From the NCBI RefSeq assembly GCF_900188025.1, contig NZ_FZNO01000015.1, forward strand, positions 1 through 64,000: a stretch of 64,000 nt of DNA. Direction: 5' to 3'. Under the pieces are notes generated by a model, which had not been told where the DNA came from, searched no databases, and worked only from the letters and a program-made list of their open reading frames with translations. Of this stretch, positions 4,459-21,949 are shown in pieces. The stretch comes from Blastococcus mobilis (GTDB lineage: Bacteria; Actinomycetota; Actinomycetes; Mycobacteriales; Geodermatophilaceae). The stretch's first letter is position 1; each line of letters begins with the position of its first letter. A program made the position numbers and the translations under genes.

Positions 4459-4473
4459 AGACTCCACGAGCAG

Positions 4474-4490
4474 GTACTTCACCGCTAAGG
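4474..4490 (+). promoter_or_regulatory. shared operator motif, site A (carbamate kinase)
   Basis: GTACTTCACCGCTAAGG fits the 17-bp consensus GTAYYTCASYGCTRARN found upstream of the other nucleobase-catabolism genes here. It is followed by TAGGGT at 4501-4506, a TANNNT -10 box only 7 bp before the GTG start. The transcript is therefore probably leaderless and the motif occupies the spacer/-35 zone. Confidence 0.7.
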
Positions 4491-4513: not shown

Positions 4514-5464
4514 GTGACTTCCCGCCGTGTGGTGATCGCCCTGGGTGGCAACGCCATGACCGGGCCCGACGGCTCCGCGACGCCCAGTGCGCAGCGGGAC
4601 GCCATCCGCGAGGCCGCCGGGCACATCGCCGACGTCGTCGCGGCCGGGGTCGAGGTGGTCCTGACCCACGGCAACGGCCCGCAGGTGGGCAACCTGCTGG
4701 TGAAGAACGAGATGGCCGCGCACGTCGTGCCGCCGGTGCCGCTGGACTGGAACGTCGCGCAGACCCAGGCGACCATCGCCTTCACCGTCGCCGACGAGCT
4801 GGATGCGGCGCTGGCGGCCCGGGGCCTCGCCCAGCGAACCGCCGGCCTGGTCACCCGCACGCTCGTCGACGTCGACGACCCGGGCTTCCGCGAGCCGTCC
4901 AAGCCCGTCGGCCGCTTCCTCCCGCGCGAGGAGGCGGAACGGTTCGTCTCCCTCGGCCAGATCTGGGAGGACCGCGGCGAGCGCGGCTGGCGACGGGTGG
5001 TCGCCAGCCCCGAGCCGAGGTCCGTCGTCGACTCCCCCGCCATCCACGCCCTCGCGGCGGCCGGCTTCGTCGTCGTCTGCGCCGGGGGCGGTGGCATCCC
5101 GGTCACCGACGACGGCCGGGACGGCAAAGGGCTGCGTGGCGTCGAGGCCGTCATCGACAAGGACCTCACCGCCGCGATCCTGGCCAAGGAGCTCGACGCC
5201 GACACCCTCGTCATCGCGACCGACGTCCCGAATGTGATGATCGACTTCGGGACGCCGTCCCAGCGCCCCCTCGGCCGGGTGACCGTGGCCGAGCTGCGTG
5301 AGCACGCGGCCGCCGGGCAGTTCGCGCGCGGCAGCATGGGCCCCAAGGTCGAGGCCGCCCTCCGCTTCGTCGAAGGTGGCGGCTCGCGCGCCGTCATCAC
5401 CTCTCTCGAGCACATCGCCGACGCCGTCAGTGGTGACGACGCCGGCACCGTAGTGACCGCCTGA
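4514..5464 (+). CDS. arcC: carbamate kinase
   Basis: 316 residues, normal family length. Catalyses carbamoyl phosphate + ADP to ATP + carbamate, which yields ammonia and CO2. Family motifs are ALGGNAM (residues 9-15), HGNGPQVGNLL (about 56), CAGGGGIPV (about 195), then VIDKDLTAA and ATDVPNV. The start is GTG with no Shine-Dalgarno sequence, consistent with the leaderless promoter proposed at 4501. There is no arginine deiminase or catabolic ornithine carbamoyltransferase nearby; the next gene is a barbiturase and FdrA lies 8 kb away. That points to carbamoyl phosphate from ureide breakdown rather than arginine. Confidence 0.93.
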   Translation: MTSRRVVIALGGNAMTGPDGSATPSAQRDAIREAAGHIADVVAAGVEVVLTHGNGPQVGNLLVKNEMAAHVVPPVPLDWNVAQTQATIAFTVADELDAALAARGLAQRTAGLVTRTLVDVDDPGFREPSKPVGRFLPREEAERFVSLGQIWEDRGERGWRRVVASPEPRSVVDSPAIHALAAAGFVVVCAGGGGIPVTDDGRDGKGLRGVEAVIDKDLTAAILAKELDADTLVIATDVPNVMIDFGTPSQRPLGRVTVAELREHAAAGQFARGSMGPKVEAALRFVEGGGSRAVITSLEHIADAVSGDDAGTVVTA

Positions 5465-5518
5465 TCCGTCCCGCCACCGCGCAGCCACCCACCCCACCAC
5501 CCCGAACAAGGAGAGCCA

Positions 5519-6622
5519 GTGCCCGCACCGATCGAGGTCCGCAAGGTCCCGCTGCACAACGTCAGTGACGCCTCCGAGCTGGCCAAGCTCATCGACGAGG
5601 GAGTCATGGAGGCCGACCGGGTCGTCGCCGTCATCGGCAAGACCGAGGGCAACGGCGGGATCAACGACTACACCCGGATCATCGCCGACCGCGCGTTCCG
5701 CGAGGTCCTGCTCGAGAAGGGCAGCCGGTCGAAGGAGGAGGTCGCCGAGATCCCGATCGTCTGGTCCGGCGGTACCGACGGCGTGATCAGCCCGCACGCC
5801 ACCGTCTTCGCGACCCTGCCCGAGGACACCGTCGAGAAGACCGACGAGCCTCGCCTGACCGTGGGCTACGCGATGAGCGACGTCCTGCTGCCCGAGGACA
5901 TCGGCCGCGTCGCCATGGTGGAGAAGGTGGCCGAGGGCGTGAAGCGCGCCATGGCGGCCGCCGGCATCACCGACCCGGCGGACGTCCACTACGTGCAGAC
6001 CAAGACGCCGCTGCTGACGATCGACACGATCCGCGACGCCCGCGAGCGCGGCCAGACGACCATCCTGGAGGAGCCGCACGGCTCCATGGACATCTCGAAC
6101 GGCACGACGGCGCTGGGCATCGCGGTCGCGCTGGGCGAGATCGAGATGCCGGCGCAGGAGCAGATCATGCGCGACCTGTCGCTGTACTCCTCGGTTGCCT
6201 CGTGCTCCTCGGGCGTCGAGTTGGACCGGGCGCAGATCGTCGTCGTCGGCAACGCGCGCGGGCACGGCGGTAACTACCGCGTCGGCCACTCGGTGATGAA
6301 GGACGCCCTCGACCAGGACGGCATCTGGAACGCGATCCGCGACGCCGGCCTCGAGCTGCCCGAGCGCCCGCACCACACCGACCTGGGCGACCGCCTGGTC
6401 AACGTCTTCCTCAAGTGCGAGGCCTCCCCGGACGGCAAGGTCCGCGGACGGCGCAACGCCATGCTCGACGACTCCGACGTCTCCTGGCACCGCCAGATCA
6501 AGGCGACCGTCGGTGGCGTGACGGCGTCGGTGACCGGCGACCCGGCCGTCTTCGTGTCCGTGGCCGCGGTGCACCAGGGCCCGTCGGGCGGCGGCCCCGT
6601 CGCCGCGATCGTCGAGGCGTAA
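5519..6622 (+). CDS. bar: barbiturase (cyanuric acid amidohydrolase/barbiturase family)
   Basis: 367 residues. Ring-opening amidohydrolase that converts barbiturate to ureidomalonate. The three-fold repeated Ser-Lys architecture is complete: K41 (IGKTEGNGG) with S83 (VWSGGTDGV), K162 (QTKTPLL) with S230/S231 ([10 protein letters not shown]), and K299 (FLKCEAS) with S356 (HQGPSGGGP). From memory the whole chain, including the N-terminal VRKVPLH and ASELAKLID segments, is much closer to Rhodococcus barbiturase than to AtzD/TrzD, but no alignment was run. GTG start with AAGGAG six bases upstream. It is 54 bp behind carbamate kinase, probably the same operon, and ends at a strong hairpin. Confidence 0.9.
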
Positions 6623-6641
6623 GGCGCGCGAGCTCCACTTC

Positions 6642-6686
6642 GGGGAAGCAGGAGGTCCGGACGACGTTCCGGACCCCTGCTTCCCC
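6642..6686 (+). terminator. hairpin terminator after barbiturase
   Basis: Arms GGGGAAGCAGGAGGTCCGGA and TCCGGACCCCTGCTTCCCC pair with one bulge around a 6-base loop. No U-tract follows, as is common in actinobacteria. It lies 20 bp past the stop and closes the carbamate kinase-barbiturase unit. Confidence 0.75.
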
Positions 6687-6851
6687 GTCGTCGCAGGAAC
6701 AGGCGCGCCGCAGATCCGCAGGCCAGCGCGCGGCGGCGCGCCTCACGGCAGGTTGCGGAACGACCCCTACGTTGGTCCAGAAGCCGCGGCCGGCAGCTCG
6801 ACCACTCGGGCGTCCCCGGCAGTTCCCGGACATGCCCAGAGGAGTCGAGTC

Positions 6852-8099
6852 GTGCGCAGGTCAGTTCCGCGAGGCGTCGTCCCGGCGCCTGCCACCGCGG
6901 CAGCCGCCGTCGCGCCGCCTCGGACCGCACCCCGACCGCGACGCGTGGAGCGGGACGTCAGCCTGGAGGCCGCCGCCCAGCAGGCCGGGGTGCTCTCGCA
7001 GGCCAGCCGCGAGGTGTCCGACACCTCCCGCGAGGCCGCCGCGTCCCTGTCCGAACTGCGGGCCGCCATCGGCGAGATCTCCGCGAGCACCACCCGCGCG
7101 TCGGCCGTGGCCGAGGAAGCCGTCCGCGACGCCCAGGCCGTGGACGCGCGGATCGCGGCGCTGCAGGCGGCGAGCCAGTCGATCACCGATCTCGTCCAGC
7201 TGATCACCGCGATCAGCCAGCAGAGCCGGATCCTGGCCCTCAACGCCTTCGTCGAGGCCGCGCGCGCCGGTGAGGTGGGCCGCGGGTTCGCCGTCGTCGC
7301 CCAGGAGGTCAAGCAGCTCGCCGGCCGCACCGCCCAGGCCGCCGAGGACATCGGTGCGCAGGTGGCCGCCGTCCAGCAGGAGACCGGGCACGCCGTCGAC
7401 GTCATCGCGCGCATCGGCGGCACCCTCGCCTCGATCGCCGAGGCCCAGGACTCGATCGCCGCCGCGGTCGAGCAGCAGCGGGTGGCCACCGACCGCGTCG
7501 TCGACAACGTCGACCGCGCGGCCAGCGGTTCGGCGCGCATCACCGACGCCGTCGCGCAGCTGGCAGAGAGCCAGCGGATCGCCTACGTGCGCCGGGCCCT
7601 GGGAGTGGCCCAGCAGCTGCTGGACGAGGCGGGCGGGGTGGAGCTCGGGACGGGTCGGCGGACGCTGACCGTGCGCGACCAGGCCACCAATCGGACCCAT
7701 CCCGCGGACCTGCCCGACCTCCTGCTCGGGGGCGTCCCGCTGGAGCGCAACGAGCACCCGAGCCGGCGCTCCCCGCTCGTCGACGACGTGGTGACCCAGG
7801 TGGGCGGGAGCTGCACGCTGTTCCAGCGCCTGGACGACGAAGGCAGCATGGTGCGCGCCGCCACGACCGTCGTCACCCCTGCAGGCCGGCGCAACGTGGG
7901 CACCTACATCGCCCGGACCGACGCCGACGGCACCGCGAACCCGGTGCTCGCCGCGGTCCACGCGGGGCAGACCTACACGGGCGCGGCCACGGTCGCCGAG
8001 CGGCCGTACTTCACTGCCTACTCCGGGCTCACCTCCGCCACCGGCGAGCTGATCGGGATGCTCTACGTGGGGATCCCGCTGGACTCGATGCCCGGCTGA
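6852..8099 (+). CDS. methyl-accepting chemotaxis-like signalling protein, cytoplasmic
   Basis: About 415 residues. The N-terminal half (about 40-250) is a helical MCP signalling domain with the hairpin-tip region around [31 protein letters not shown]. The C-terminal half resembles a Cache-type sensor domain ([19 protein letters not shown] and IGMLYVGIP). Domain order is inverted relative to classical chemoreceptors and no transmembrane helix is seen, so it should be soluble. GTG 6852 is chosen because GAGGAG lies about 8 bp upstream; the longer frame from 6753 has a low-complexity lead. No che genes are nearby. The signal sensed is unknown. Confidence 0.8.
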
Positions 8100-8115
8100 C
8101 GGTCGGTCGGGGACC

Positions 8116-9807: not shown

Positions 9808-9968
9808 CTCGGTCCGGGGGTTCCCGGCGATGAGCTCCGCCAGCCGCCCGTCCAGTGCGCACCCCCCGTCAACGCACGCAGCTTGGTCGCCCGGCGGCGC
9901 CGATCAGACGTGTCGGGCTCCATGATCCCACCCGGGCGCGTCGGCGGTGCAGCACCCCTACGACCAGC

Positions 9969-10520
9969 TCAGATCCGATTGCACTCAGTGATCGCCAGGT
10001 ACCCCGGCGGAACGGCGTCGACGAGCCACACCCCGTTCGCGGACCGCGTGAACCGGGTGCCGTCGGCAGCGAGGCGGGCGGCGTCCACCCGGAGGACGAC
10101 CGCCCGACCCCGCCGTCCTCCCACGGTGCGTGCGATCGCGACGTCGGGGCTGAGATGTACCGCGTGCCGGCGGCCGGGCCGTAGCCCCTCGGCGAGGATC
10201 GACGCGAGGAATCGGTCGACCGTGCCGTGGAACAGCTCCGCCGGAGGCGTCGCTGGTTCGTACCCGAGGTCGACGGCGACGCTGTGGCCCTGGCTGGCGC
10301 GGATGCGGGTGCCGGTCTCGTCGAAGGCGAACCGCTGCTTGTCGTTGCCGGCGACGACCGCCTCCAGCTCGGCGCGGGTCAGCCGCAGCCCGTGCGCCCC
10401 CAGCGCCGTGAGCAGCTCGTCGACGTCCACCCAGCCGGCGTCGTCCAGGGTGAGGCCGGCGCTGTCGGGCCGGTGCCGGAGGACGAAGGACAGCCGTTTG
10501 CTGATCCGGACGTGGTCCAC
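9969..10520 (-). CDS. kptA: RNA 2'-phosphotransferase, Tpt1/KptA family
   Basis: 183 residues, full length. Removes a 2'-phosphate from RNA using NAD+, giving ADP-ribose 1'',2''-cyclic phosphate. Family features: KRLSFVLRHRPDSAGL at the N-terminus (about residues 8-23), then RIRASQGHS (about 72), LFHGT (about 96), HAVHLSPD (about 119) and the terminal VWLVDAVPPGYL. In eukaryotes the enzyme finishes tRNA splicing; the bacterial substrate is uncertain. It lies between the phosphatase gene and rpsD on the same strand, with about 60 bp between it and the upstream rpsD. Confidence 0.92.
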   Translation of the reverse strand: MDHVRISKRLSFVLRHRPDSAGLTLDDAGWVDVDELLTALGAHGLRLTRAELEAVVAGNDKQRFAFDETGTRIRASQGHSVAVDLGYEPATPPAELFHGTVDRFLASILAEGLRPGRRHAVHLSPDVAIARTVGGRRGRAVVLRVDAARLAADGTRFTRSANGVWLVDAVPPGYLAITECNRI

Positions 10521-10581
10521 GCCCTCAGCATGACCGGGTGGACGAGGTGACCGCGAGCGGCACCCGGGGGAGAGGCCGAGG

Positions 10582-11184
10582 TCAGCGGGAGTAGTACTCC
10601 ACGACCAGCTGCTCCTCGCAGACGACCGGCACCTCGTCGCGGCCCGGCGTCCGCTCGACGCGGGCGACCAGGTCGGCCAGGCGCACCGCGAGGTAGGCGG
10701 GAGCGTCGGCGTGCGCGCCGGAGGCGGCGACGAGGAAGGGCTCCTTCTTCTTCGACTTCTCGGCGACCTCGATGAAGTCGCCGGGCGTCAACCGGTACGA
10801 CGGGCGGTCGACCCGCTTGCCGTTGACCAGCACGTGCTGGTGGGTGACGAACTGGCGGGCCTGGTAGATCGTCCGCGCGAACCCGGCGCGCAGGACGGTG
10901 GCGTCCAGCCGCGACTCGAGGTCCTGGATCAGCGCCTCGCCGGTCTTGCCGCCCGAGCGCTTGGCCCGGTCGAACGCCGCCCGCAGCTGCGTCTCGCTGA
11001 TGTCGTACTGCGCGCGCAGCCGCTGCTTCTCCTTGAGCCGGGTGGAGTAGTCACTGTCCTTGCGGCGCTTGCGCCCGTGCTCCCCTGGCGGATAGGGACG
11101 GCGCTCGAAGTACTGGACGCACTTGGGGGTGAGCGGGATGCCCAGCGCGCGGCTGAGGCGGACCTTGGGACGGGGCGTGTTCAC
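10582..11184 (-). CDS. rpsD: 30S ribosomal protein S4, stand-alone rpsD
   Basis: 200 residues. S4 binds 16S rRNA early in 30S assembly. Recognisable are FERRPYPPGEHGRKR (about 26-40), an S4 RNA-binding domain (LESRLDATVLRAGFARTIYQARQFVTH, about 88-115) and the terminal EQLVVEYYSR. It lacks the CXXC zinc motifs of zinc-type S4. It resembles the separate rpsD gene of streptomycetes rather than the copy in an rpoA operon. GTG start with GGAGG four bases away. An iron-box motif lies just upstream, shared with the divergent gene. Whether a second rpsD exists elsewhere cannot be seen. Confidence 0.95.
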   Translation of the reverse strand: MNTPRPKVRLSRALGIPLTPKCVQYFERRPYPPGEHGRKRRKDSDYSTRLKEKQRLRAQYDISETQLRAAFDRAKRSGGKTGEALIQDLESRLDATVLRAGFARTIYQARQFVTHQHVLVNGKRVDRPSYRLTPGDFIEVAEKSKKKEPFLVAASGAHADAPAYLAVRLADLVARVERTPGRDEVPVVCEEQLVVEYYSR

Positions 11185-11197
11185 GGAACCTCCGGAG

Positions 11198-11216
11198 TTT
11201 GGTTAGGCTCACCTTA
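11198..11216. promoter_or_regulatory. IdeR/DtxR-type iron box
   Basis: TTTGGTTAGGCTCACCTTA matches the 19-bp IdeR/DtxR consensus TTAGGTTAGSCTAACCTAA at 16 positions. It lies 31 bp before the DUF2470 gene and 14 bp before rpsD on the other strand. Iron-bound IdeR would be expected to repress the rightward gene; any effect on rpsD is open. Confidence 0.75.
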
Positions 11217-11246
11217 CAACGCATCCCTAGTCCCCAGAGGTGGTCC

Positions 11247-12002: not shown

Positions 12003-12060
12003 TGGGGCCTACCGAGCCGGCTGTTCTCGGGCAGGTTCGGCGCCGGTAGCGGCCGGTGGG

Positions 12061-12327
12061 TCAGCGCTCGTCCGGCGCTCGGCCCGCGTGGTCGACCAGC
12101 TCCCCCGCGCTCGCCGGGCTCCCGCGCCTGCGGGCGCAGGATGCGCAGCAGAAGAAGACGCCGTCGGCCTCGACGCCGTGGCCGACGACCTTCACGCCGC
12201 AGTGCTCGCAGACCGGGGCGAGCGCGTGGATCGCGCACTCGAAGCTGTCGAACGTGTGCACCGCTCCGGCGGCGTGCACCTCGAAACTGAGCCGATAGTC
12301 GTTGCCGCAGACCTCGCAGCTGGCCAT
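12061..12327 (-). CDS. small Cys-rich metal-binding protein
   Basis: 88 residues with at least seven cysteines plus histidines: CEVCGNDY (about 4-11), FECAIH (about 29), CEHCGVKVVGHG (about 39) and FFCCASCARRRG (about 58). It belongs to a conserved family of small proteins, often annotated as metallothionein-like or zinc-ribbon, that likely bind zinc. Start ATG 12327 has a strong GGAGGGG at 6 bp. Convergent with the DUF2470 gene. Partners are unknown. Confidence 0.75.
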   Translation of the reverse strand: MASCEVCGNDYRLSFEVHAAGAVHTFDSFECAIHALAPVCEHCGVKVVGHGVEADGVFFCCASCARRRGSPASAGELVDHAGRAPDER

Positions 12328-12439
12328 GGCGTCCCCTCCGCTCGGCGTCGCGACCGGACCGGCCACGTCGTGCGCGGACTACCCGGCGGCGCGGGCAGGT
12401 AACGGTGGCTGTGCCCTGCGGACCCGCCGGGCGCGCGGA

Positions 12440-13858
12440 TCAGGGGATGCGGGCCTCCTCGGCGAGCGCGGCCAGCGCCTGTTCGAAGCACTCCTGCGGG
12501 GGCTGGACCAGCCCGGCACCGACCTGGCCGGTGCCCGCGATCCGCCCGGCCATGCCGGTGTTGATCTGCGGCAACCAGCCGGTGCGGGCGACCTTGAGGA
12601 CGTCGATACCGGTCGGCGAGCCGCGGAAGCCCATGATCGGGATCGCCATGGCCGGGTTCTCCGCGAGCGTCACCTGGTACATCCGCTCGGTCGTGGCCAG
12701 TGCGTCGGGCACGGTGCCACCGACGAAGCGCACGATGGCCGGGGCGGCGGCCATCGAGAAGCCGCCGACGCCGTAGGTCTCCATGATCGCCGAGTCGCCG
12801 ATGTCGGGGTTGGCGTCCTCGGGCCCGTAGTCGCCGAGGAACAGCCCGACCGGGGTGTTGGCGGGGCCGGTGAACCAGCGGTCGCCGGTGCCGGCCGTCT
12901 GGATGCCGAACTCGGTGCCGTTGCGCGACATCACGGTGACCATCGAGGAGCCCGGCACGCCGCGGGCGGCGTCCATCGCGAGCTTCGCCGTCGGCATGCC
13001 GAGGTTGAGGAAGAAGTGCTCGTTGCCGCCGATGAACTTCAGGACCGCCGCGATGTCGGACGACGCGGCCTTCGTGGCCACGATGGCCGGGGAGAGCTCC
13101 CGGAGGGTCATCAGGGAGCCGGCGCGGTTGCGGTTGTGCCCCTCGTCGCCCATCTGCAGCATCTGCGCGAGCACGGCCTTGACGTCGAGCGGGTCGTTGC
13201 CGGCGTCGATCGAGCCGCGCACGGCCTCCGACAGGATCGGCCCCAGGACGTCGCGCATCCACGCCAGCCGGGTCTGCACCTCGGCGTTGAAGGCGCCCAT
13301 CCGCAGTACCTTGCCGAGGCCCTCGTTGAGGTTGCAGAACGCCTGCCCGCCGTGGACGGGGTCGCTCAGGCACCACATCCACATGGACGGCGAGGTCACC
13401 CCGGCCATCGGGCCGACCGTCCGGTGGTGGTGGCAGGGATCGAGGGTGATCTCGCCGGCGGCCAGGATCCGCTCGGCGTCCTCCACGTCGTCGGCCCAGC
13501 CCTCGAAGAGGCACGCGCCGATCAGCGCGCCGCGCATGGGGCCGGACGCGGTCTCCCAGGTCAGCGGCGGACCGGAGTGCAGCAGCGTCCGGTCCTGCAG
13601 ACCGATCACCTCGCGGGCCGGCCGGACGTCGACCAGCTGGGAGCCCGCGGCGAGGATCCGCTCGACGGCGACCCGGTTGGCCGAGTTCCGCCGCGGGTCG
13701 AGGGCGAGGGCGGCCAGGTCGGCCGGGTCACCGAAGCCCGGCGGCCGCCAGTCGACGTCGTGGACGTCGGTGCCTTGCGCGCGCAGGGCGTCGGAGAAGA
13801 CGCCGACACCCGCGGCGACGATCGACGGAGGGCCGGAGAGCAGTCCACCCAGGGTCAT
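12440..13858 (-). CDS. DUF1116 protein, YlbE/AllG-like (carbamoyltransferase subunit candidate)
   Basis: 472 residues, normal for DUF1116. Contains the family's conserved stretches around GDEGHNRNRAGS (about 240), GGNEHFFLNLGMP (about 275), MSRNGTEFGIQ (about 307) and GTGQVGAGLVQPP near the end. The E. coli homologue YlbE (AllG) works with FdrA (AllF) and YlbF (AllH) as an oxamate transcarbamylase that releases carbamoyl phosphate in allantoin breakdown. ATG start with AGGAG five bases upstream. It follows fdrA on the same strand with a 70-bp gap, clearly one operon. No DUF2877 (YlbF/AllH) gene was recognised in the window. Confidence 0.85.
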   Translation of the reverse strand: MTLGGLLSGPPSIVAAGVGVFSDALRAQGTDVHDVDWRPPGFGDPADLAALALDPRRNSANRVAVERILAAGSQLVDVRPAREVIGLQDRTLLHSGPPLTWETASGPMRGALIGACLFEGWADDVEDAERILAAGEITLDPCHHHRTVGPMAGVTSPSMWMWCLSDPVHGGQAFCNLNEGLGKVLRMGAFNAEVQTRLAWMRDVLGPILSEAVRGSIDAGNDPLDVKAVLAQMLQMGDEGHNRNRAGSLMTLRELSPAIVATKAASSDIAAVLKFIGGNEHFFLNLGMPTAKLAMDAARGVPGSSMVTVMSRNGTEFGIQTAGTGDRWFTGPANTPVGLFLGDYGPEDANPDIGDSAIMETYGVGGFSMAAAPAIVRFVGGTVPDALATTERMYQVTLAENPAMAIPIMGFRGSPTGIDVLKVARTGWLPQINTGMAGRIAGTGQVGAGLVQPPQECFEQALAALAEEARIP

Positions 13859-13928
13859 GACATCTCCTCGCTGGCGCTCGTCGGGCCGATGACGGTCGCT
13901 CTGTCTATCGATGAGCTCGCAAGCTCGC

Positions 13929-15446
13929 TCATGCAACGGCTCCCAGCAGGTCGAGGGCGTACCGCGTGGCCGCGGCGTTGGAGGCGAAGACATGAGCGCC
14001 GGCGGCGGCCAGGGCGTCGGCCTGCCGCGACCAGCCCTGCGGGTCGGCCTCGGTGCCGACCAGGGCGATCACCACCGGCAGCGAGGTCGTCGCCCGCGCT
14101 GCGGTCAGCGCGGGGACGAGCGCCCCCGCCGGGTCCGGGTCGGCGCCGTGGCCGAGGACGACGTCGAGAAGCAGCACCGCCGGCTCCCCCGAGCGGGCCA
14201 GGGCGTCGATGGCCTCCAGCCGCAGCGTCGGGTCGATCATCGGGTGCGCGCGGCCCACGGTCAGGGCGTCGTCCCCGAAGTCGACGACGACGTGCCCCGG
14301 GGCCGACAGGTCCGTTCCGAGGTCGAGCTCGGGACGCAGCGGGATGTTCGAGCGGATGTCGCCGAGAACCGGCGAGGCGAGCAACATCGCCTCGTCGGCG
14401 AGCGTGCCGCCCGCGAACAGTCCCTTCAGAGCCGCGCCCGGGACCGCCGGGTCGGCAGGTCCCGGACGCGACGGCCAGGTGGGCACGTCGATGCCCATGT
14501 CACCGAGGAGCGCCTCGACGGCGGCGGTCAGATCCGGCGTCTCCGGCGAGAGGACGCCGAAGCGGACCGGCACCGACAGTTCGTGCGCGGCGGCCTGGAC
14601 GGCCTCGGCGACCGACGGCGCGGGGGGCTTGGAGACCACCAGCACCCGCTCGGTGGCCGGGTCGGCGTCGAGGGCGGCGAGCGCGTCGAGGGTGGCCAGG
14701 CCGCCGACCTCCTCCTTGAGGTCGCGGCCGCCCACGCCCAGCACGTGCGAGACGCCGACGCCGGCCATGTCGAGCAGGCAGGAGACCTGCTGGGCGCCGG
14801 TGCCGGAGGCGGCGACCAGGCCGACCGGCCCCGGGCGGACGACGTTGGCGAAGCCCAGCGCGACACCGGAGACGATCGCGGTCCCGCAGTCGGGGCCCAT
14901 CACCAGGACGCCGGCGTCGTGGGCGGCCCGCTTGAGCGCCACCTCGTGCTCGACGGGCACGCCGTCGGAGAAGACGAGGACGCTGCGGCCGGCGGCGATG
15001 GCGTCCGCGGCCTCCGCGACGGCGAACTGGCCGGGCACGCTGACGATCGCGAGGGCGGGGGTGTCGGGCCCGAGCTCGTCGAGGCCGGCGCCGATCGTGC
15101 GCTGCGGGACGGCGGTCGCGGTGCCGGTGGAGCGTTCGCGCTCGGCGAGGGCGGCGTCGACCGCGGCCAGCGCGGCGGCCAACGCGGCGTCGTCCTCGGC
15201 GCGGACGCCGATGAGCAGCTGCTCCGGCGAGATCTCGCCGTCCGGTGCCAGGCCCATGTTCGCCGCGAGCTCGAGGTTCAGCGGCGTGGCCATGGCCACC
15301 AGCACCGCGGTCACGCCGTCGCGGGCCGCCACGTCGCGGCTGACCTGCATGAGCCGGACGGAGTCGGCGTAGACGCCCGACCGCAGCACGACGGAGCTGA
15401 CTCCGGCCGTGGCGGACGGGGCTGCTGGGGGCGCTGAGGCGGTCAC
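13929..15446 (-). CDS. fdrA: FdrA family protein (AllF-like acyl/carbamoyl-transferring enzyme)
   Basis: 505 residues. FdrA proteins share the succinyl-CoA synthetase fold. Visible are VRLMQVSRD (about 31), ATPLNLELAANMGL (about 53), a nucleotide/CoA-like binding segment MGPDCGTAI with VGLVAASGTGAQQ (about 190-215), and GRDLKEEVGG (about 242). The C-terminal ligase-like part contains GRAHPMIDPTLR. In E. coli FdrA is part of the oxamate transcarbamylase. GTG start with GAGGAGG; the longer open frame to 15716 is not credible because it lacks family similarity. Transcription is probably from the 15447-15720 region, which carries two copies of the shared operator. Confidence 0.88.
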   Translation of the reverse strand: MTASAPPAAPSATAGVSSVVLRSGVYADSVRLMQVSRDVAARDGVTAVLVAMATPLNLELAANMGLAPDGEISPEQLLIGVRAEDDAALAAALAAVDAALAERERSTGTATAVPQRTIGAGLDELGPDTPALAIVSVPGQFAVAEAADAIAAGRSVLVFSDGVPVEHEVALKRAAHDAGVLVMGPDCGTAIVSGVALGFANVVRPGPVGLVAASGTGAQQVSCLLDMAGVGVSHVLGVGGRDLKEEVGGLATLDALAALDADPATERVLVVSKPPAPSVAEAVQAAAHELSVPVRFGVLSPETPDLTAAVEALLGDMGIDVPTWPSRPGPADPAVPGAALKGLFAGGTLADEAMLLASPVLGDIRSNIPLRPELDLGTDLSAPGHVVVDFGDDALTVGRAHPMIDPTLRLEAIDALARSGEPAVLLLDVVLGHGADPDPAGALVPALTAARATTSLPVVIALVGTEADPQGWSRQADALAAAGAHVFASNAAATRYALDLLGAVA

Positions 15447-15548
15447 TGTTCCTCCTCGCTGACGCTCGTCGGACAGCGACCGCTGCGGTGCTGCGCTTCC
15501 TTGGCGGGCTCGCCAGCTCGCCCGCTCCCAGCACCGTACCCACAGATG

Positions 15549-15567
15549 TCTCAGCGGTGAAGTATCT
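15549..15567 (-). promoter_or_regulatory. shared operator motif, site B (fdrA side)
   Basis: On the minus strand ATACTTCACCGCTGAGA (within 15567-15549) fits the GTAYYTCASYGCTRARN motif. It is about 103 bp upstream of fdrA, reads towards it, and is followed on that strand by TACGGT, a TANNNT -10 candidate. Confidence 0.68.
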
Positions 15568-15586
15568 GCGTCTGAGATGCCATAAC

Positions 15587-15606
15587 GATTTAGCACTGAG
15601 GTACTT
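15587..15606 (+). promoter_or_regulatory. shared operator motif, site C (permease side)
   Basis: GATTTAGCACTGAGGTACTT is the reverse complement of the same motif (GTACCTCAGTGCTAAAT). It lies 20 bp from site B and about 115 bp upstream of the permease, so the pair B/C flanks a divergent promoter region. Confidence 0.7.
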
Positions 15607-15720
15607 CCGCCGTGCCGTGGTGCATGACACATTGGCGCCTCCCGGTGGTGGCAGGGCCCGTGACAGGGCCCGTTGACCGGCACCGATACGGGTGGGAAGT
15701 CACGTCGAGGAGGCACTCAG

Positions 15721-17160
15721 ATGGCGTTCGGTTGGAAGCTCTACGGGGACGGGAAGACCCCGCCCCTGGGAGAGGCGGTAGCCCCGGACGAGCGGCTCTC
15801 GTGGCCGCGGACCGTCGGCATCGGCGCACAGCACGTCGTGGCCATGTTCGGTGCGACGTTCGTCTTCCCCCTGATCATGGGGCTGGACGCGAACCTCGCG
15901 ATCATGATGAGCGGCATCGCGACGATCATCTTCCTGCTGATCGTCAAGGGTCGGGTGCCCAGCTACCTGGGCACCAGCGCCGCGTTCGTCGGCGGTGTCG
16001 CAGCGATCCGCACGAACGGCGGTGACTCCAGCGACGTCGTCGGCGCCCTGCTCGTGGCCGGTGTGGTCCTCGCCCTCGTGGGTCTGGTGATCCACTTCGC
16101 GGGGCTGTCGGTCATCAACAGGGTGCTGCCGCCCGCCGTCACCGGCGCGGTGGTCATGCTGATCGGCTTCAACCTGGCCCCCGTGGCGGCCGGCGTCTAC
16201 TGGCCGCAGGACCAGTGGGTCGCGCTGGCCACGATGGCCTTCGTCATCGTCGCCTCGCTGGCGCTGCGCGGCTTCATCGCCCGCATCTCGATCCTGCTGG
16301 GCCTGATCTTCGGGTACCTCCTCTCCGTCTTGCTTGACGTCACGGCCGGCCCGATCACCTCGCCGGACGGCACGGGCGCCGTGAGCACCCGCGACCGGAT
16401 CAACTTCGACGCCGTGGGTGACGCCGACTGGTTCGGTCTGCCGGACTTCACCGCCCCCAGCTTCTCGCTGAACTTCAGCCTGCTGGTCATCCCCGCCGTC
16501 ATCGCGCTGGTGGCGGAGAACGTCGGGCACGTCAAGGCCGTGGCCGAGATGACCAAGCGCGACCTGGACCCGGTGATGGGCCGGGCCGTCTTCGCCGACG
16601 GGGTCGCGACCGCCGTCGCCACGTCGGTCGGCGGTTCGCCGACGACCACCTACGCCGAGAACATCGGCGTCATGGCCGCCACCCGCGTCTACTCCACCGC
16701 CGCGTACTACGTGGCCGCGCTCGTGGCGATCCTGCTCGGGCTGGTGCCGAAGTTCGGCGCGCTGATCAACATCGTCCCGGGCGGGGTGCTCGGCGGCATC
16801 ACCGTCGTCCTCTACGGGATGATCGGCCTGCTCGGCGCGAAGATCTGGAAGGAGAACCGGGTCGACTTCGCCAACCCGATCAACCTCGTGCCGCTCGCGG
16901 CCGGGATCATCATCGGCGTCGGCGACGTCACGCTGCGGTTCTCCGACGACTTCTCGCTCAACGGCATCGCGCTCGGCTCGATCGTCGCCGTCCTGGCCTG
17001 GCACGCCGCACGGTCGCTGGCGCCGGCGGACATGAGGGCCGCGCTGCTGCGCGAGGGCACGCATCCGGCTGCCGCGTCGTCGCTCGGCCACCACGGTGCG
17101 CCGGACCCGTCGTCGGTCGACGAGGTCGGCCGCCCGGGCGTCCCGGGTTCGAACCGCTAG
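15721..17160 (+). CDS. NCS2 nucleobase:cation symporter (uracil/xanthine permease family)
   Basis: 479 residues, about 12-14 membrane helices. NCS2 motifs: GAQHVVAMFGATFVFPL at the first helix (about 36-52), the catalytic glutamate region VAENVGHVKAV (about 263) and the signature GGSPTTTYAENIGVMAATRVYS (about 305). The TTTYAENIG form is that of UraA/RutG-type pyrimidine carriers more than of typical xanthine/urate carriers, but specificity is inferred. ATG with GAGGAGG upstream; the longer frame from 15673 is unlikely. Divergent from fdrA. Ends before tandem hairpins. Confidence 0.9.
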   Translation: MAFGWKLYGDGKTPPLGEAVAPDERLSWPRTVGIGAQHVVAMFGATFVFPLIMGLDANLAIMMSGIATIIFLLIVKGRVPSYLGTSAAFVGGVAAIRTNGGDSSDVVGALLVAGVVLALVGLVIHFAGLSVINRVLPPAVTGAVVMLIGFNLAPVAAGVYWPQDQWVALATMAFVIVASLALRGFIARISILLGLIFGYLLSVLLDVTAGPITSPDGTGAVSTRDRINFDAVGDADWFGLPDFTAPSFSLNFSLLVIPAVIALVAENVGHVKAVAEMTKRDLDPVMGRAVFADGVATAVATSVGGSPTTTYAENIGVMAATRVYSTAAYYVAALVAILLGLVPKFGALINIVPGGVLGGITVVLYGMIGLLGAKIWKENRVDFANPINLVPLAAGIIIGVGDVTLRFSDDFSLNGIALGSIVAVLAWHAARSLAPADMRAALLREGTHPAAASSLGHHGAPDPSSVDEVGRPGVPGSNR

Positions 17161-17166
17161 TCCCCC

Positions 17167-17240
17167 GAGCCGGCGCCGCCGGCTCGGCGCCGCCGGCTCA
17201 CCCGACCGCACGCCGTCCCCGTCGCCGGGGGCGGCGTGCG
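17167..17240 (+). terminator. tandem hairpins after the permease
   Basis: A first stem, GAGCCGGC/GCCGGCTC (17167-17185, 3-base loop), and a second stem, CGCACGCCG/CGGCGTGCG (17207-17240), follow the permease stop within 50 bp. Together they should separate the permease from the Mo-hydroxylase operon, which has its own operator. Confidence 0.7.
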
Positions 17241-17291
17241 GCGTCTCGGGGCACGGAACGGCGGGGCGCGGCCATCCGGCTCGGGGCAAAA

Positions 17292-17311
17292 GATTTAGCG
17301 CTGAGGTACTT
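17292..17311 (+). promoter_or_regulatory. shared operator motif, site D (Mo-hydroxylase operon)
   Basis: GATTTAGCGCTGAGGTACTT is nearly identical to site C (one base different over 20) and is the reverse complement of GTACCTCAGCGCTAAAT. It lies 68 bp before the first Mo-hydroxylase gene. TACTTT (17307-17312) inside it could serve as the -10 box, so bound regulator would block polymerase. Confidence 0.72.
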
Positions 17312-17378
17312 TCGCCGCCCTGCAAGCGATGACAGAGTGACTGCACTTCCCCCACTCGTACGGAGGTGACTGCAGCCG

Positions 17379-18260
17379 GTGAAGCCCGCACCGTTCCGCT
17401 ACGCCGACCCCGGCACGCTCGACGAGGCCCTCGCGGTCCTGTCGGCCGAGGGTGAGGGCGCCAAAGTGCTCGCCGGTGGCCAGTCGCTGCTCCCGCTGCT
17501 CTCCATGCGGCTCGCGGCGCCGACCACGCTGGTGGACATCAACCGGGTCCCCGGCCTGGACTCCGTCGAGGTCACCGGGAACGGCGTGACGGTCGGGGCG
17601 CTGGTGCGCCACACCGCACTGCTCGCGGACGACGCCGCCGCGCGGGTCCAGCCGCTGCTGGCCCGGGCGACGGCGAACGTCGCCCACCCGGCCATCCGCA
17701 ACCGGGGCACCACCGTCGGCTCCATCGCGCACGCCGACCCCTCGGGTGAGATGACCTCGGTCCTCGCCCTCACCGACGGCGCCGTCACGGTCGCCACGCC
17801 CTCCGGTCCTCGAACCGTCGAGTGGCGGGATCTGTTCGTCGGCCCGCTGGAGACCTCTCTCCACGGTCCCGCCGTCGTCACCTCCGCCTTCTTCCCCGCG
17901 CTGCCCGACCGCTCGGGCACCGCCTTCGCCGAGGTCGCCCGCCGCAAGGGCGACTACGCCGTCTGCGGCGCCGGCGTCGTCGTCACGCTGGACGAGGACC
18001 GCCGCATCGCGCGCGTCCGCGCCTCCTACGTCTCGGTGGGCCTGACCCCCGAGGTGCACGACCTGACCGAGGCCGTCGCCGGCAAGCCCGTCGACAGCGC
18101 CGACTGGGCGGCCGCCGGCGCGCTCGCGCGGACCCTGGTCGACCCGGACACCGACATCCATGCGAGCGCCGACTACCGGCGGCTGCTGGTCGGCGTCCTC
18201 ACCGAGCGCACGTTGGCCGAGGCTGCCGCCGAGGCCGCCGCGAAGGTGACGGGCGAGTGA
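17379..18260 (+). CDS. molybdenum hydroxylase, FAD-binding medium subunit
   Basis: 293 residues, normal for CoxM/XdhB-type subunits. It passes electrons from the iron-sulphur subunit to FAD and an acceptor. FAD motifs: VLAGGQSLLPLLSMR (about 30-44) and IRNRGTTVGSIAHADPSGEM (about 106-125). First gene of a unit with the 2Fe-2S, Mo and CoxG-like genes. GTG start with GGAGGTG about 10 bp upstream. Regulated, by inference, through operator D. Confidence 0.92.
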   Translation: MKPAPFRYADPGTLDEALAVLSAEGEGAKVLAGGQSLLPLLSMRLAAPTTLVDINRVPGLDSVEVTGNGVTVGALVRHTALLADDAAARVQPLLARATANVAHPAIRNRGTTVGSIAHADPSGEMTSVLALTDGAVTVATPSGPRTVEWRDLFVGPLETSLHGPAVVTSAFFPALPDRSGTAFAEVARRKGDYAVCGAGVVVTLDEDRRIARVRASYVSVGLTPEVHDLTEAVAGKPVDSADWAAAGALARTLVDPDTDIHASADYRRLLVGVLTERTLAEAAAEAAAKVTGE

Positions 18261-18357
18261 GCAGCGCCGGCGGCTGGGAGCAGCTCTCGCTCGCGGGGGA
18301 CAGCGACCGAGGTGCGGGACGAGCCCGGAACCGAGCAGTGAGCACGAGGGGAGCCGA

Positions 18358-18873
18358 ATGAGCGTCGACACGGACCGGACGATCACGGTCACGGTGAACG
18401 GTGTTCCACGTGAAGCCACCGTGCCGGTGCGCCGGCTGTTGTCGGATGCGCTGCGGCACGACCTGGGTCTGACCGGCACGCACGTCGGCTGCGAGCACGG
18501 CGTCTGCGGGGCGTGCACGGTGCTGGTGGACGGCGACCCGGTCCGCTCCTGCCTGATGCTCGCCGTCCAGGTGGACGGGCACGCCGTCACCACCGTCGAG
18601 GGCCTCGCGCGGGACGACCACCGGGGCGGGCAGGTGCTGCACCCCGTGCAGGAGGCCTTCCGCGAGTGCCACGCCCTGCAGTGCGGCTTCTGCACGCCGG
18701 GGTTCCTCACGACGATCGCCGCCGGGCTGGAGAAGCGGGATCCGGCGGCGGAGCTCACCGACGAGGAGGTCGACGACATGGTCGGCGGCAACCTCTGCCG
18801 GTGCACGGGCTACGCCAACATCAAGAAGGCCGTCCACCACGCCGCCGCGGCAATGAAGGACGACGCCCGATGA
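18358..18873 (+). CDS. molybdenum hydroxylase, [2Fe-2S] small subunit
   Basis: 171 residues. The N-terminal plant-type ferredoxin cluster has GCEHGVCGACTVLVDG plus a later Cys (about 43-63). The C-terminal cluster has QCGFCTPGF and NLCRCTGYANI (about 103-140). Start ATG 18358 has GAGGGG close by. The 97-bp gap after the medium subunit holds GC-rich repeat-like sequence of the kind seen at other gene boundaries here. The stop overlaps the start of the large subunit by ATGA, indicating translational coupling. Confidence 0.94.
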   Translation: MSVDTDRTITVTVNGVPREATVPVRRLLSDALRHDLGLTGTHVGCEHGVCGACTVLVDGDPVRSCLMLAVQVDGHAVTTVEGLARDDHRGGQVLHPVQEAFRECHALQCGFCTPGFLTTIAAGLEKRDPAAELTDEEVDDMVGGNLCRCTGYANIKKAVHHAAAAMKDDAR

Positions 18874-21290
18874 CGACCAAGCTCTTCGGTGAGCCGGTCC
18901 GCCGGCGCGAGGACGCGCGACTGATCATCGGCAAGGGCCGCTACCTCGACGACATCGGCTCGAACGCCCTGGCCGCGGCCTTCGTGCGGTCGCCGCACGC
19001 CCACGCGCGGATCACCGGCATCGACGTCGAGGCCGCGCTGGACGTCGAGGGCCTCGTCGCGATCTACACCTACGACGACCTCACCGGCCCGATGGCCGAG
19101 CCGCTGCCGGTGCTCATCCCGCATCCGCAGCTGACCCAGCCCCGCACCGGTCACGCCCTGGCCCGCGACGTCGTGCGGCACGTGGGCGAGGCGATCGTCA
19201 TGGTGGTCGCCACCGACCGGTACGTCGCCGAGGACGCCGCCGAGCGGATCGTCGTCACGTACGAGGAGCTGCCAGTCGTCGTCGGCGTGGACGCCGCGCA
19301 CGAGGCGAAGGCGGCGGTGCATCCGGACGTGCCCGACAACGTGGCCGCCCGGCACCGCCAGGAGACCGGGGACGTCGAGCCGGTGCTGGCCGCCTCGCCG
19401 CGCACGTTGAGCTTCACGCAGTACATCGAGCGCAGCGCCAGCATGCCCATGGAGGGCAGGGGCGTCCACGCGAAGTGGGACACCGACGACCGGTCGCTCC
19501 GCGTCTACACGAGCACCCAGGCCTCGACGTCGGTGCGCGCCGCGATCGCCGCGAAGCTGGACCTGTCGCTGGACAAGGTCGAGGTCATCGCGCCCGACGT
19601 CGGTGGCGGCTTCGGCGTGAAGATCGTGCACCCGTGGCCCGAGGAACTGCTGGTGCCCATGGCCGCGATCGCGCTGGGCGCCGAGGTGAAGTGGGCCGAG
19701 GACCGCCGGGAGCACTTCATCTCCTCGGCGCACGAGCGGCAGCAGCGCCAGGACATCACCGTGGGCTATGACGACGAGGGCCGGATCACCGCGCTCGACG
19801 TGCACGTCCTGCACGACAACGGCGCGTACACGCCCTACGGCATCATCGTGCCGATCATCACCGCGACCCAGCTGGTCGGGCCGTACGTGATCCCCGTGTA
19901 CCGGGTGCAGGTGGACAGCGTCTACACCAACACCGTCATCGTGACGCCGTACCGCGGCGCCGGGCGGCCGCAGGCCTGCTACGCGATGGAACGGACGATG
20001 GACCGCATCGCCGACGAGCTCGGGCTCGACCGGGCCGTCGTCCGCGAGCGGAACCTGATCCAGCCCGACCAGTTCCCCTACGACCACCAGCTGACGTTCC
20101 AGGACGGCCGGCCGGTCATCTACGACTCCGGCGACTACCCGGGGCTCATGGTGAAGCTCAAGGAGCTGGTGGGCTGGGACGAGGCCGAGGCGCTGCGCTC
20201 GGAGGCCGCGGCCCGGGGGAAGCACCTTGGCATCGGGATGGCGCTGTACGTGGAGGGCACGGGCCCGGGGCCGTACGAGGGCGGGCACGTGCAGGTGCTC
20301 GGCAGCGGGAAGGTGCTGGTCTCGACCGGTCTGACCTCGCAGGGGCAGGGGCACGAGACGGCGTTCGCGCAGATCGTGGCCTCCGAGCTCGGGGTGCCCA
20401 TCGAGGACATCGAGGTGACCACCGGCGACACCCGTCGCTTCGGGTACGCCGTGGGCACGTTCGCCTCACGCGCCGCGGTGATGAGCGGCAACGCGATCGC
20501 GCTGGCCGCCCGGGGCGTGCGGGAGAAGGCGCTGCGGATCGCGGCCGACGTGCTCGAGGTCGACGCCAGCGACCTGGAGATCGACGAAGGCCTGGTGCAG
20601 GTGAAGGGCACGCCGGGCGCGTCCATCCCGCTGCGCACGGTCGCCGTCCTGTCCAACCCGCTGCGCTATGCCTTCGACGAGGCGGCGAAGCAGGCCACGC
20701 AGTTCACGACGCACGACGACTCCAAGCCGCCCGTGGCGGAGGGCGATGCCCCGGGGCTGGAGCACCGCGACTACTACTCACCGCTCCGGTCGACCTTTGC
20801 GTCGGGCGCGCACGCGGCGATCGTGGAGATCGACCCGGCGACGTGGGAGATCGACATCGTGAAGTACGCGGTCGTGCACGACTGCGGCAACGTGGTGAAC
20901 CCGATGATCGTCGAGGGCCAGGTGCACGGCGGCGTCGCGCAGGGGGTGGGCGGCGCCCTGTACGAGCGGATGGTCTACGACAAGGACGGCCAGCTGCAGA
21001 ACGCCTCCTACATGGACTTCCTCATGCCCTACTCCAGCGAGGTGCCGGACGTGGTCATCGACCACCAGCAGACGCCGTCGCCGCTGAACCCGCTGGGCAT
21101 CAAGGGCGCCGGCGAGGCCGGGGTCATCCCGGGGACGGCGGCGATCGCGTCGGCGATCGAGGACGCCGTGGGACGGCGGATCGCGGCGATGCCCATCTCC
21201 CCCACCGAGCTGTACGACCTGGTGCGATCCCCCGATTCGGAACGGACGGCCGCGTCCTCGCGCCGTGCCGAGAATGGAGTTCTGGCGTGA
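18870..21290 (+). CDS. molybdenum hydroxylase, molybdopterin-binding large subunit (form II)
   Basis: 806 residues. Binds the molybdopterin cofactor and hydroxylates the substrate. Visible are GEPVRRREDARLIIGKGRYLDD (N-terminus), VGGGFGVK (about 247), VTPYRGAGRPQA (about 365) and the catalytic glutamate in KGAGEAGVIPGT (about 744). The loop PYRGAGR is the form II type, not the AYRCSFR of true CO dehydrogenase, so this is a purine, pyrimidine or aldehyde hydroxylase. ATG overlaps the small-subunit stop. Context with a barbiturase and an NCS2 carrier suggests a nucleobase substrate: xanthine or, more speculatively, uracil/thymine. Confidence 0.92.
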   Translation: MTTKLFGEPVRRREDARLIIGKGRYLDDIGSNALAAAFVRSPHAHARITGIDVEAALDVEGLVAIYTYDDLTGPMAEPLPVLIPHPQLTQPRTGHALARDVVRHVGEAIVMVVATDRYVAEDAAERIVVTYEELPVVVGVDAAHEAKAAVHPDVPDNVAARHRQETGDVEPVLAASPRTLSFTQYIERSASMPMEGRGVHAKWDTDDRSLRVYTSTQASTSVRAAIAAKLDLSLDKVEVIAPDVGGGFGVKIVHPWPEELLVPMAAIALGAEVKWAEDRREHFISSAHERQQRQDITVGYDDEGRITALDVHVLHDNGAYTPYGIIVPIITATQLVGPYVIPVYRVQVDSVYTNTVIVTPYRGAGRPQACYAMERTMDRIADELGLDRAVVRERNLIQPDQFPYDHQLTFQDGRPVIYDSGDYPGLMVKLKELVGWDEAEALRSEAAARGKHLGIGMALYVEGTGPGPYEGGHVQVLGSGKVLVSTGLTSQGQGHETAFAQIVASELGVPIEDIEVTTGDTRRFGYAVGTFASRAAVMSGNAIALAARGVREKALRIAADVLEVDASDLEIDEGLVQVKGTPGASIPLRTVAVLSNPLRYAFDEAAKQATQFTTHDDSKPPVAEGDAPGLEHRDYYSPLRSTFASGAHAAIVEIDPATWEIDIVKYAVVHDCGNVVNPMIVEGQVHGGVAQGVGGALYERMVYDKDGQLQNASYMDFLMPYSSEVPDVVIDHQQTPSPLNPLGIKGAGEAGVIPGTAAIASAIEDAVGRRIAAMPISPTELYDLVRSPDSERTAASSRRAENGVLA

Positions 21291-21949
21291 ACCTCGACGG
21301 CTCTGCGGTGCTTTCGGCCGACCCCGACAAGGTGTGGGCGGTCATCACCGATCCGGCCGTGCTGGCGCGGACGATCCCGGGCTGCGAGTCACTCGAGCAG
21401 ATCGGGGACGACGAGTACCGGATGAACGTGTCCGTGGGCGTCGGGGCGATCCGCGGGACCTACGCCGGCGAGGTGCGGCTGTCGGACCAGAACCGGCCGA
21501 AGTCCTACGTCATGCACGCGTCGGGTGCGGGTGCGCCGGGCCAGGTGCGGGCGACGGTGACCATCAACCTGGAGCCGTCCGACCAAGGGACGACGCTGAC
21601 CTACTCGGCCGATGCCGTGGTCGGCGGGCCGGTTGCCGGTGTGGGCCAGCGGATGATCACCGGCGTCGCGAAGCGGATGGCCGGCCAGTTCTTCAAGGCG
21701 ATCGACGATGAGCTGACCGGCGCCGTGGTGCCGATCGCCGCTGCGCCGTCTGCCGCTGCGGCCGCTCCCAGCGACGCCTCCCTGGTGGCCGGCGCCCAGC
21801 CGGCTGCCGCTGGTCGGACGTTCACCGGCAAGGCTGCCGTTGCTGCTCCGACCGGCGACGTCCAGACGCTCGCGCTCGGCGCCGTCGGGGGCGCGGTCCT
21901 CACCCTCATCGGCGTCCTCGTCGGCTACCGCCTGGGCCGCCGGAGCTAG
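21287..21949 (+). CDS. CoxG-like SRPBCC protein with C-terminal membrane anchor
   Basis: 220 residues. The N-terminal SRPBCC domain (about 1-145) resembles CO dehydrogenase subunit G (LSADPDKVWAVITDP, IPGCESLE, GVGQRMI). An Ala-rich linker follows, then a single helix near the C-terminus (ALGAVGGAVLTLIGVLVGY) ending in RLGRRS. CoxG proteins tether Mo hydroxylases to the membrane. GTG start overlaps the large-subunit stop as GTGA with TGGAG upstream, so it is the last gene of the Mo-hydroxylase operon. Confidence 0.88.
   Translation: MNLDGSAVLSADPDKVWAVITDPAVLARTIPGCESLEQIGDDEYRMNVSVGVGAIRGTYAGEVRLSDQNRPKSYVMHASGAGAPGQVRATVTINLEPSDQGTTLTYSADAVVGGPVAGVGQRMITGVAKRMAGQFFKAIDDELTGAVVPIAAAPSAAAAAPSDASLVAGAQPAAAGRTFTGKAAVAAPTGDVQTLALGAVGGAVLTLIGVLVGYRLGRRS

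Follow-up and report, generated by a model that had tools for sequence, protein, structure and literature searches.

Why does a carbamate kinase gene adjoin a barbiturase gene, and what do relatives of the Escherichia coli three-subunit transcarbamylase AllFGH do in the same locus? Both questions are raised by a stretch of Blastococcus mobilis DNA (GCF_900188025.1, contig NZ_FZNO01000015.1, positions 1-64,000, forward strand), here called the window, meaning the whole 64,000 nt that were analysed; it belongs to a 5.09 Mb assembly, numbered G000 among our sampled genomes (G) and loci (L). We consider it likely that the window carries a regulon for oxidative pyrimidine breakdown whose last steps are phosphorolytic and yield ATP. 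In it, AllFGH probably converts ureidomalonate and phosphate to malonamate and carbamoyl phosphate, from which the kinase would make ATP. A first-pass annotation of this DNA had proposed that AllFGH and the kinase serve the product of barbiturase and not oxalurate, and its genomic predictions hold: the third subunit was found, AllG and AllH follow barbiturase rather than allantoinase, barbiturase-linked AllG form a clade, and the matching kinase subtype is present in nearly all barbiturase genomes compared. Gene content, a shared operator, co-occurrence, that clade and the shared absence of AllG and kinase are direct observations; the support they lend to a ureidomalonate-splitting AllFGH is genomic and not proof. 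The genes concerned, identified by Pfam, NCBIfam and PDB searches, are as follows.

4514..5464, + strand: carbamate kinase (Pfam AA_kinase; NCBIfam NF009007 above cut-off), expected to run towards ATP from carbamoyl phosphate
5519..6622, + strand: barbiturase, Group VI of the Toblerone-fold ring-opening amidohydrolases, by PDB match and specificity residues
12440..13993, - strand: AllG, DUF1116 carbamoyltransferase subunit (PF06545, E 2.7e-92), probable start about 13858
13929..15716, - strand: AllF, FdrA subunit with a CoA-ligase fold, probable start about 15446
15673..17160, + strand: NCS2 nucleobase carrier, RutG/UraA-like by family models, probable start about 15721
17379..18260, + strand: Mo-hydroxylase FAD (M) subunit by domain search, candidate uracil (thymine) dehydrogenase
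18358..18873, + strand: Mo-hydroxylase 2Fe-2S (S) subunit, by domain search
18513..21290, + strand: Mo-hydroxylase large (L) subunit, CoxL-type, containing PYRGAGR, probable start about 18870
20843..21949, + strand: CoxG-like protein, probable start about 21281

The pairing of barbiturase with carbamate kinase that had been read from the sequence is borne out by all three kinds of search (4514-6622), as is that of FdrA and DUF1116 with a UraA-like carrier (12440-17160; PF06545, PDB 3dmy and the ncs2 models) and the presence of a Mo-hydroxylase, its M, S and L subunits spanning 17379-21290 with CoxG extending to 21949. The kinase has the amino-acid-kinase fold and passes the ArcC-type model NF009007, falling about 9 bits short of a second, TIGR00746 (349.6 bits, cut-off 358.25). 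FdrA matches PDB 3dmy, 'Protein fdrA', at E 2.8e-65, and scores 379.3 bits on the NCBIfam FdrA model (cut-off 433), while the carrier lies above the ncs2 superfamily cut-off and below those for RutG and uracil permease. The Mo-hydroxylase bears what we take to be the form II motif, PYRGAGR, and its gene neighbourhood is kept in relatives; uracil is its putative substrate. For the ring-opening enzyme the top PDB match is 5hwe, 'Barbiturase' (E 2.6e-193, 645 bits), followed by a cyanuric acid hydrolase (E 4.8e-102, 345 bits). Asn, His, Lys, Val and Ala, read by eye from the PDB-match alignment, occupy the positions of AtzD Asn195, His321, Lys325, Val345 and Ser-Ala346, which is the Group VI barbiturase signature as set out in PMC3758960. 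At the Arg188 position the window alignment has asparagine, as does PMC3758960, unlike the glutamine by which PMC4051656 defines its barbiturase subgroup, and we used the asparagine version. We take the enzyme to be a true barbiturase, predicted from its residues to hydrolyse barbiturate.

These genes had also been said to share an operator, and this statement proved incomplete rather than wrong, as HyuA/HyuB and an NmrA-MarR pair (about 43116-44479) carry it too. The 17 bp pattern, TYAGCRSTGARGTAYYT, was written by eye from intergenic sequences of the window; a general repeat search of the window returned diffuse repeats alone, mostly in coding sequence. The sites and the additional genes are these.

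4472..4488, - strand: operator site, exact, about 40 bp upstream of carbamate kinase
15551..15567, + strand: operator site, exact, in the FdrA-carrier intergenic region
15590..15606, + strand: second exact operator site in the same intergenic region
17295..17311, + strand: operator site, exact, upstream of the Mo-hydroxylase
31683..31699, - strand: operator site, 1 mismatch, upstream of HyuA
31709..33781, + strand: HyuA, ATP-dependent hydantoinase/oxoprolinase-family subunit (PDB N-methylhydantoinase 7hk5, E 8.7e-142)
33778..35664, + strand: HyuB, of a subtype (at least 75% identity) that marks barbiturase genomes
43116..43634, - strand: MarR-family regulator (PF12802, E 5.3e-15)
43622..44479, - strand: NmrA-like NAD(P)-binding protein ahead of MarR, by domain and homology searches
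44489..44505, + strand: operator site, 1 mismatch, just upstream of NmrA-MarR

With at most one mismatch the whole assembly contains six sites, all of them inside the window. Two mismatches yield 13 genome sites against 6 for a reversed control, so that only matches at one mismatch or fewer are informative, and the seven additional sites outside the window are probably due to chance. Because the pattern itself was derived from the window, relatives provide the better test. We scanned 1.10 Mb in 67 homologous loci (L018-L084), whose titles nearly all name Geodermatophilaceae, and found 118 sites at up to one mismatch and none for the reversed pattern. Of these, 109 are upstream of carbamate kinase or in the region from FdrA to the carrier or Mo genes, and of the remaining nine, placed by hand, eight precede Mo, FdrA, barbiturase, carrier or HyuA genes and one (L025) is downstream of the carrier in a locus that ends ahead of the Mo gene. 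The operator precedes the kinase in 53 of the 63 loci whose kinase start could be assessed (offsets 41-69 bp), and at least one site occurs in 38/42 homologous FdrA-carrier/Mo intergenic regions. It also lies upstream of HyuA in Modestobacter L074 (1 mismatch) and, with 2 mismatches each, in L073 and Blastococcus L158. A common operator thus stands before the genes of a single regulon, AllH excepted. The putative reader of this operator is probably the MarR-type protein, which is 87% identical to a regulator near HyuAB in Blastococcus and 74% to a Modestobacter one; NmrA-type genes come after HyuB in Rhodococcus L156 and Aeromicrobium L086.

If AllFGH acts on the barbiturase product, it should follow barbiturase from genome to genome. 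We surveyed 393 Actinomycetia genomes, the same for every marker, where allantoinase means the TIGR03178 type alone at E <= 1e-100, other allantoinase families lying outside the search. The barbiturase family (PF09663) was detected in 82, AllG in 88, AllH in 80 and allantoinase in 179. AllG and AllH occur together in 79 genomes, 74 with PF09663 and 48 with allantoinase: they are present in 48/53 genomes that have both PF09663 and allantoinase, in 0/126 with allantoinase and no PF09663, and in 26/29 with PF09663 and no allantoinase, which is the predicted co-occurrence of barbiturase and AllFGH whether or not allantoinase is present. The five AllG and AllH genomes that lack PF09663 lack allantoinase as well. 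In this survey, then, AllFGH does not keep company with the allantoin pathway, though the window genome has an allantoinase. At genus level AllG with AllH and PF09663 occur together in 32 genera, of 38 and 35 (Fisher p 4e-20).

The fit tightens when barbiturases are separated from the remainder of their family. Among six genomes with PF09663 and no AllG, five have proteins that share no more than 34-38% identity with the barbiturase of the window (the sixth, G185, 74%), against 70-79% in the retrieved barbiturase loci outside the family Geodermatophilaceae. G388, which the survey counts as having both, combines a 35% PF09663 protein with a 37% AllG of another clade. The barbiturase type, counted by identity in retrieved loci and by Pfam score elsewhere, is present in about 76 genomes, 74 of which have AllG and AllH; G185 does not, and neither does G018, an incomplete genome where AllG is present and AllH was not found. 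In the 51 genomes with barbiturase and AllG on one contig (not counting G388, whose enzyme is of a different type), 43 pairs lie within 50 kb and 45 within 100 kb (median 29 kb, farthest 1.7 Mb).

The third subunit (DUF2877/AllH), which had been noted as missing from the window, is indeed absent there and is encoded on a different contig of the genome (PF11392; G000:C64:48719-49030), divergently from a gene with PucR domains (L002 9964-11910). In other families AllG, FdrA, PucR, the carrier and the Mo-hydroxylase are grouped. Where tblastn was able to pick up AllH, the divergent copy of the window genome being the query, the gene separates FdrA from PucR.

We built a tree from 56 AllG sequences, 35 barbiturase-linked (Geodermatophilaceae thinned to every fifth) and 21 others including E. 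coli YlbE (AllG). A branch supported at 100/98 separates the barbiturase-linked AllG from the rest, E. coli AllG included. Labels were assigned by locus linkage, and extra AllG copies of barbiturase genomes were labelled 'other' in advance because they are located away from barbiturase loci. At twelve AllG positions, 73-75 of the 75 barbiturase-linked sequences have the same residue and 6/6 of the others compared have a different one; these include core positions 438 (Gly vs His), 341 (Leu vs Phe) and 425 (Arg vs Asp/Glu). The window AllG thus does not group with its E. coli counterpart, and FdrA stays below the cut-off of its model.

Several of the 'other' AllG belong to FdrA-AllG-kinase operons of a second type (L136, L137, L148, L164, L170), with a kinase 42-45% identical. 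PucR-like genes accompany the operons of L136 and L170, and L136 also has an isochorismatase-family hydrolase; the operons are possibly true oxamic transcarbamylases or biuret-linked systems. The Geodermatophilus ruber genome G398 (L026) has five AllG-family matches, and its four retrieved extra copies (L167, L168, L169) fall outside the barbiturase-linked clade.

The kinase behaves as expected of a partner of AllFGH. It lies in the same retrieved stretch as barbiturase in 73/80 loci. An AllG search in 30 genomes hand-picked from these 80 loci found it in 24, the six without it being four Rhodococcus and two Modestobacter, and in all six carbamate kinase is also absent at E <= 1e-30. Another comparison used 80 hand-chosen genomes: 33 barbiturase genomes of the class, 9 locus genomes (one of which, G413, is the same genome as G288), 5 of cyanuric type and 33 without PF09663. 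The kinase subtype (at least 55% identity) is present in 31/33, 3/9 and 0/38 of the barbiturase class, locus and other genomes (best 51% in the last), and the HyuB subtype in 32/33, 9/9 and 0/38. We conclude that kinase and AllFGH travel together, and that barbiturase and HyuB form the constant core; no gene that we tested is linked to barbiturase more tightly than the HyuAB subtype, Rhodococcus included.

Urease agrees with this division. In a test of 80 genomes, including 73 of the 75 class genomes with AllG and barbiturase, urease is present in 7/7 barbiturase genomes without AllG (the six locus genomes and G185) and in 29/73 with it (Fisher p 0.0026), no match at E <= 1e-100 being found in the other 44. 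Such a distribution fits because urease would be needed if urea were the product; we regard the correlation as agreement, not proof.

A number of observations weigh against a phosphorolytic role for AllFGH. AllH of the window genome is unlinked to the other subunits and has no operator among genome sites at up to two mismatches. G185 has a barbiturase, with AllG, AllH, HyuB and the kinase subtype all not found; G044, counted among the 74 above, has AllH, barbiturase and kinase and a sole AllG of the wrong clade (the genome is 93% complete). G327 has barbiturase, AllFGH and HyuB with a kinase copy only 46% identical, and L059 has barbiturase, AllG and FdrA with no kinase in the retrieved stretch. 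The urease comparison is weak since its seven AllG-negative genomes amount to about three lineages. The window genome itself encodes urease and so would not depend on a phosphorolytic route for nitrogen, and its allantoinase, uricase and 2-oxo-4-hydroxy-4-carboxy-5-ureidoimidazoline (OHCU) decarboxylase mean that oxalurate could arise in it. Three related cluster amidases used as tblastn queries found no malonamate amidase in the window (the rest of the genome was not searched), as the first-pass annotation had remarked.

The alternative that survives best is that AllFGH is an ordinary oxamic transcarbamylase (OXTCase) of the allantoin pathway, co-regulated here since all nucleobase catabolism is induced together. 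All three subunits are present in the window genome, as such an enzyme would have; the window AllG is 47.9% identical to that of E. coli; and uricase and OHCU decarboxylase lie in the window, with allantoinase elsewhere in the genome. This account nevertheless seems unlikely to us, given the separate clade of barbiturase-linked AllG and a survey in which AllG and AllH follow PF09663 in 26 genomes without allantoinase and never allantoinase alone, as judged by the TIGR03178 type.

Slightly less plausible is a route in which an amidase converts ureidomalonate to malonate and urea, as in Rhodococcus, while AllFGH and the kinase act on another ureide such as the N-carbamoyl product of HyuAB. Amidases do occur in the barbiturase clusters of Rhodococcus and Modestobacter and in those of L097 and L107, whose genomes also have AllFGH; HyuB is linked to barbiturase as tightly as AllFGH is, and the window genome has urease. 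Rhodococcus and Modestobacter first suggested a clean swap of AllFGH and kinase for an amidase; this idea was weakened, because the amidase of AllG-negative Modestobacter shares 63% identity with an enzyme encoded next to barbiturase in a genome with AllG and kinase (L097) and 57% with one in another such genome (G039, L107), so that the swap is not clean, and these likenesses too count against a phosphorolytic role. Yet HyuB is kept where AllG and kinase are absent, and HyuAB therefore does not require AllFGH; 44 of the 73 AllG-positive genomes lack a urease match; and tblastn with the three cluster amidases found none in the window, neither beside barbiturase, where the classical pathway would place one, nor elsewhere. 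We think this route improbable.

That the ring-opening enzyme is instead a cyanuric acid hydrolase, in a cluster degrading s-triazines or biuret, is very improbable and we rejected it: the enzyme does pass the NCBIfam equivalog NF052395 'cyanuric acid amidohydrolase' (475.8, cut-off 360), but the structure match favours barbiturase 5hwe by 300 bits and the specificity residues are those of Group VI rather than the cyanuric set, which largely refutes it. The NF052395 model evidently spans both cyanuric hydrolases and barbiturases, and the label alone is misleading because a barbiturase passes its cut-off. A plasmid search for barbiturase gave 132 records, 2 above 60% identity; on 21 of 25 plasmids among the matches listed, nearly all enterobacterial, there is a ring-opening amidohydrolase with the same 47.8% identity to the query, which probably reflects the spread of a cyanuric acid hydrolase.

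We return to the phosphorolytic reading. By its family the NCS2 carrier would import uracil, which the Mo-hydroxylase may oxidise to barbiturate; barbiturase, an orthologue of a characterised enzyme, would open the ring to ureidomalonate. AllF, AllG and AllH, paralogues of the E. coli oxamic transcarbamylase, would then cleave ureidomalonate phosphorolytically to malonamate and carbamoyl phosphate, a role suggested by their co-occurrence with barbiturase, their clade, their shared absence with the kinase and the analogy of the substrates. Carbamate kinase, by its family function and in the direction presumed here, would pass the phosphate to ADP, giving ATP, CO2 and ammonia; by drawing off carbamoyl phosphate it would gain one ATP per ring. 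Some amidase would turn malonamate into malonate. Many relatives have genes for a CoA-transferase III and a carboxyltransferase ahead of kinase and barbiturase (L098, L099, L102, L104, L112, L116), which suggests that malonate is activated and used by the same cluster, by way of malonyl-CoA.

HyuAB was itself entertained as the malonamate amidase, on account of its operator and its position beside kinase and barbiturase in relatives; this was set aside because HyuB is present in all six AllG-negative locus genomes, where no malonamate is expected. Among solved structures the nearest to HyuAB is N-methylhydantoinase, a ring-opening, ATP-dependent enzyme, and HyuAB may open a second ring, for instance 5-methylbarbiturate from thymine; a ring substrate is our guess because genomes with and without AllG alike retain HyuB. 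Taken together, it appears fairly likely that AllFGH paralogues widespread in Actinomycetia constitute a new ureidomalonate (malonamate) transcarbamylase earning one ATP per uracil, with HyuAB acting on a second pyrimidine ring such as 5-methylbarbiturate from thymine.

Such a system would be a new way of earning ATP from a nucleobase, and would add a second substrate to the one handled by the three-subunit transcarbamylase, an enzyme that had no genes assigned to it until 2024 (PMC11326118). It would explain the position of carbamate kinase beside barbiturase, and would correct the Pfam label 'oxamate carbamoyltransferase' on AllG in dozens of sampled actinobacterial genomes. The urease correlation suggests that a phosphorolytic route lets urease-negative bacteria recover ureide nitrogen, as has been proposed for the enteric OXTCase (PMC11326118). 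Barbiturase, placed in a rare pathway in PMC3758960, is by contrast frequent in Actinomycetia, the family being present in 82 of the 393 genomes and the barbiturase type in about 76. A literature search, judged by title and start of abstract and with most subscription journals outside its coverage, found no proposal of this ATP-yielding route.

Other features of the window may be mentioned. A chemoreceptor-like open reading frame follows directly after barbiturase (6753-8099), its signalling domain preceding a Cache domain, and might sense a pyrimidine. Within the pyrimidine region an RNA 2'-phosphotransferase (KptA/Tpt1) gene adjoins one for an rpsD-like ribosomal protein S4 (9969-11184). DUF6986, OHCU decarboxylase and uricase are grouped at 46326-49518, so that a purine route lies near the pyrimidine genes; DUF6986 homologues (39-42%) are also found near AllG or AllH in L172 and L174.

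Among known systems, the reductive and Rut pathways likewise start from uracil; to our knowledge both use a different ring chemistry and involve no substrate-level phosphorylation. The oxidative pathway of Rhodococcus erythropolis (uracil dehydrogenase, barbiturase, ureidomalonase) is closer, sharing the barbiturase orthologue, an NCS2 carrier beside it in 4/4 Rhodococcus loci, a Mo-hydroxylase in 2/4 (two loci end early) and HyuB in 4/4 genomes. It differs in that AllG and any carbamate kinase at E <= 1e-30 are missing from the four Rhodococcus genomes compared, in which barbiturase is immediately followed by a PF01425-type amidase; its products are malonate and urea (PMC3758960), in contrast to the malonamate and carbamoyl phosphate proposed for the window genome. 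In nitrifiers, allFGHK genes stand beside biuret and triuret genes and have been read as oxalurate-degrading (PMC12625717). They resemble the window in having AllFGH and a kinase outside a full allantoin pathway, and differ in their biuH/trtA neighbours and in that 'barbitur-' is absent from the main text of that paper.

The nearest relative remains AllFGH with AllK in E. coli, which interconverts oxalurate plus phosphate and oxamate plus carbamoyl phosphate, and was assayed in vitro in the oxalurate-forming direction, from oxamate and carbamoyl phosphate (PMC11326118). In the window genome the kinase adjoins barbiturase and not allFGH, AllH is unlinked, AllG belongs to a separate clade with 12 distinguishing positions, and the carboxylate of the proposed substrate, ureidomalonate, is one CH2 further away than in oxalurate. 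Both systems nevertheless comprise three homologous subunits and a kinase, and the chemistry proposed is the same: phosphorolysis of an N-carbamoyl amide ending in a carboxylate.

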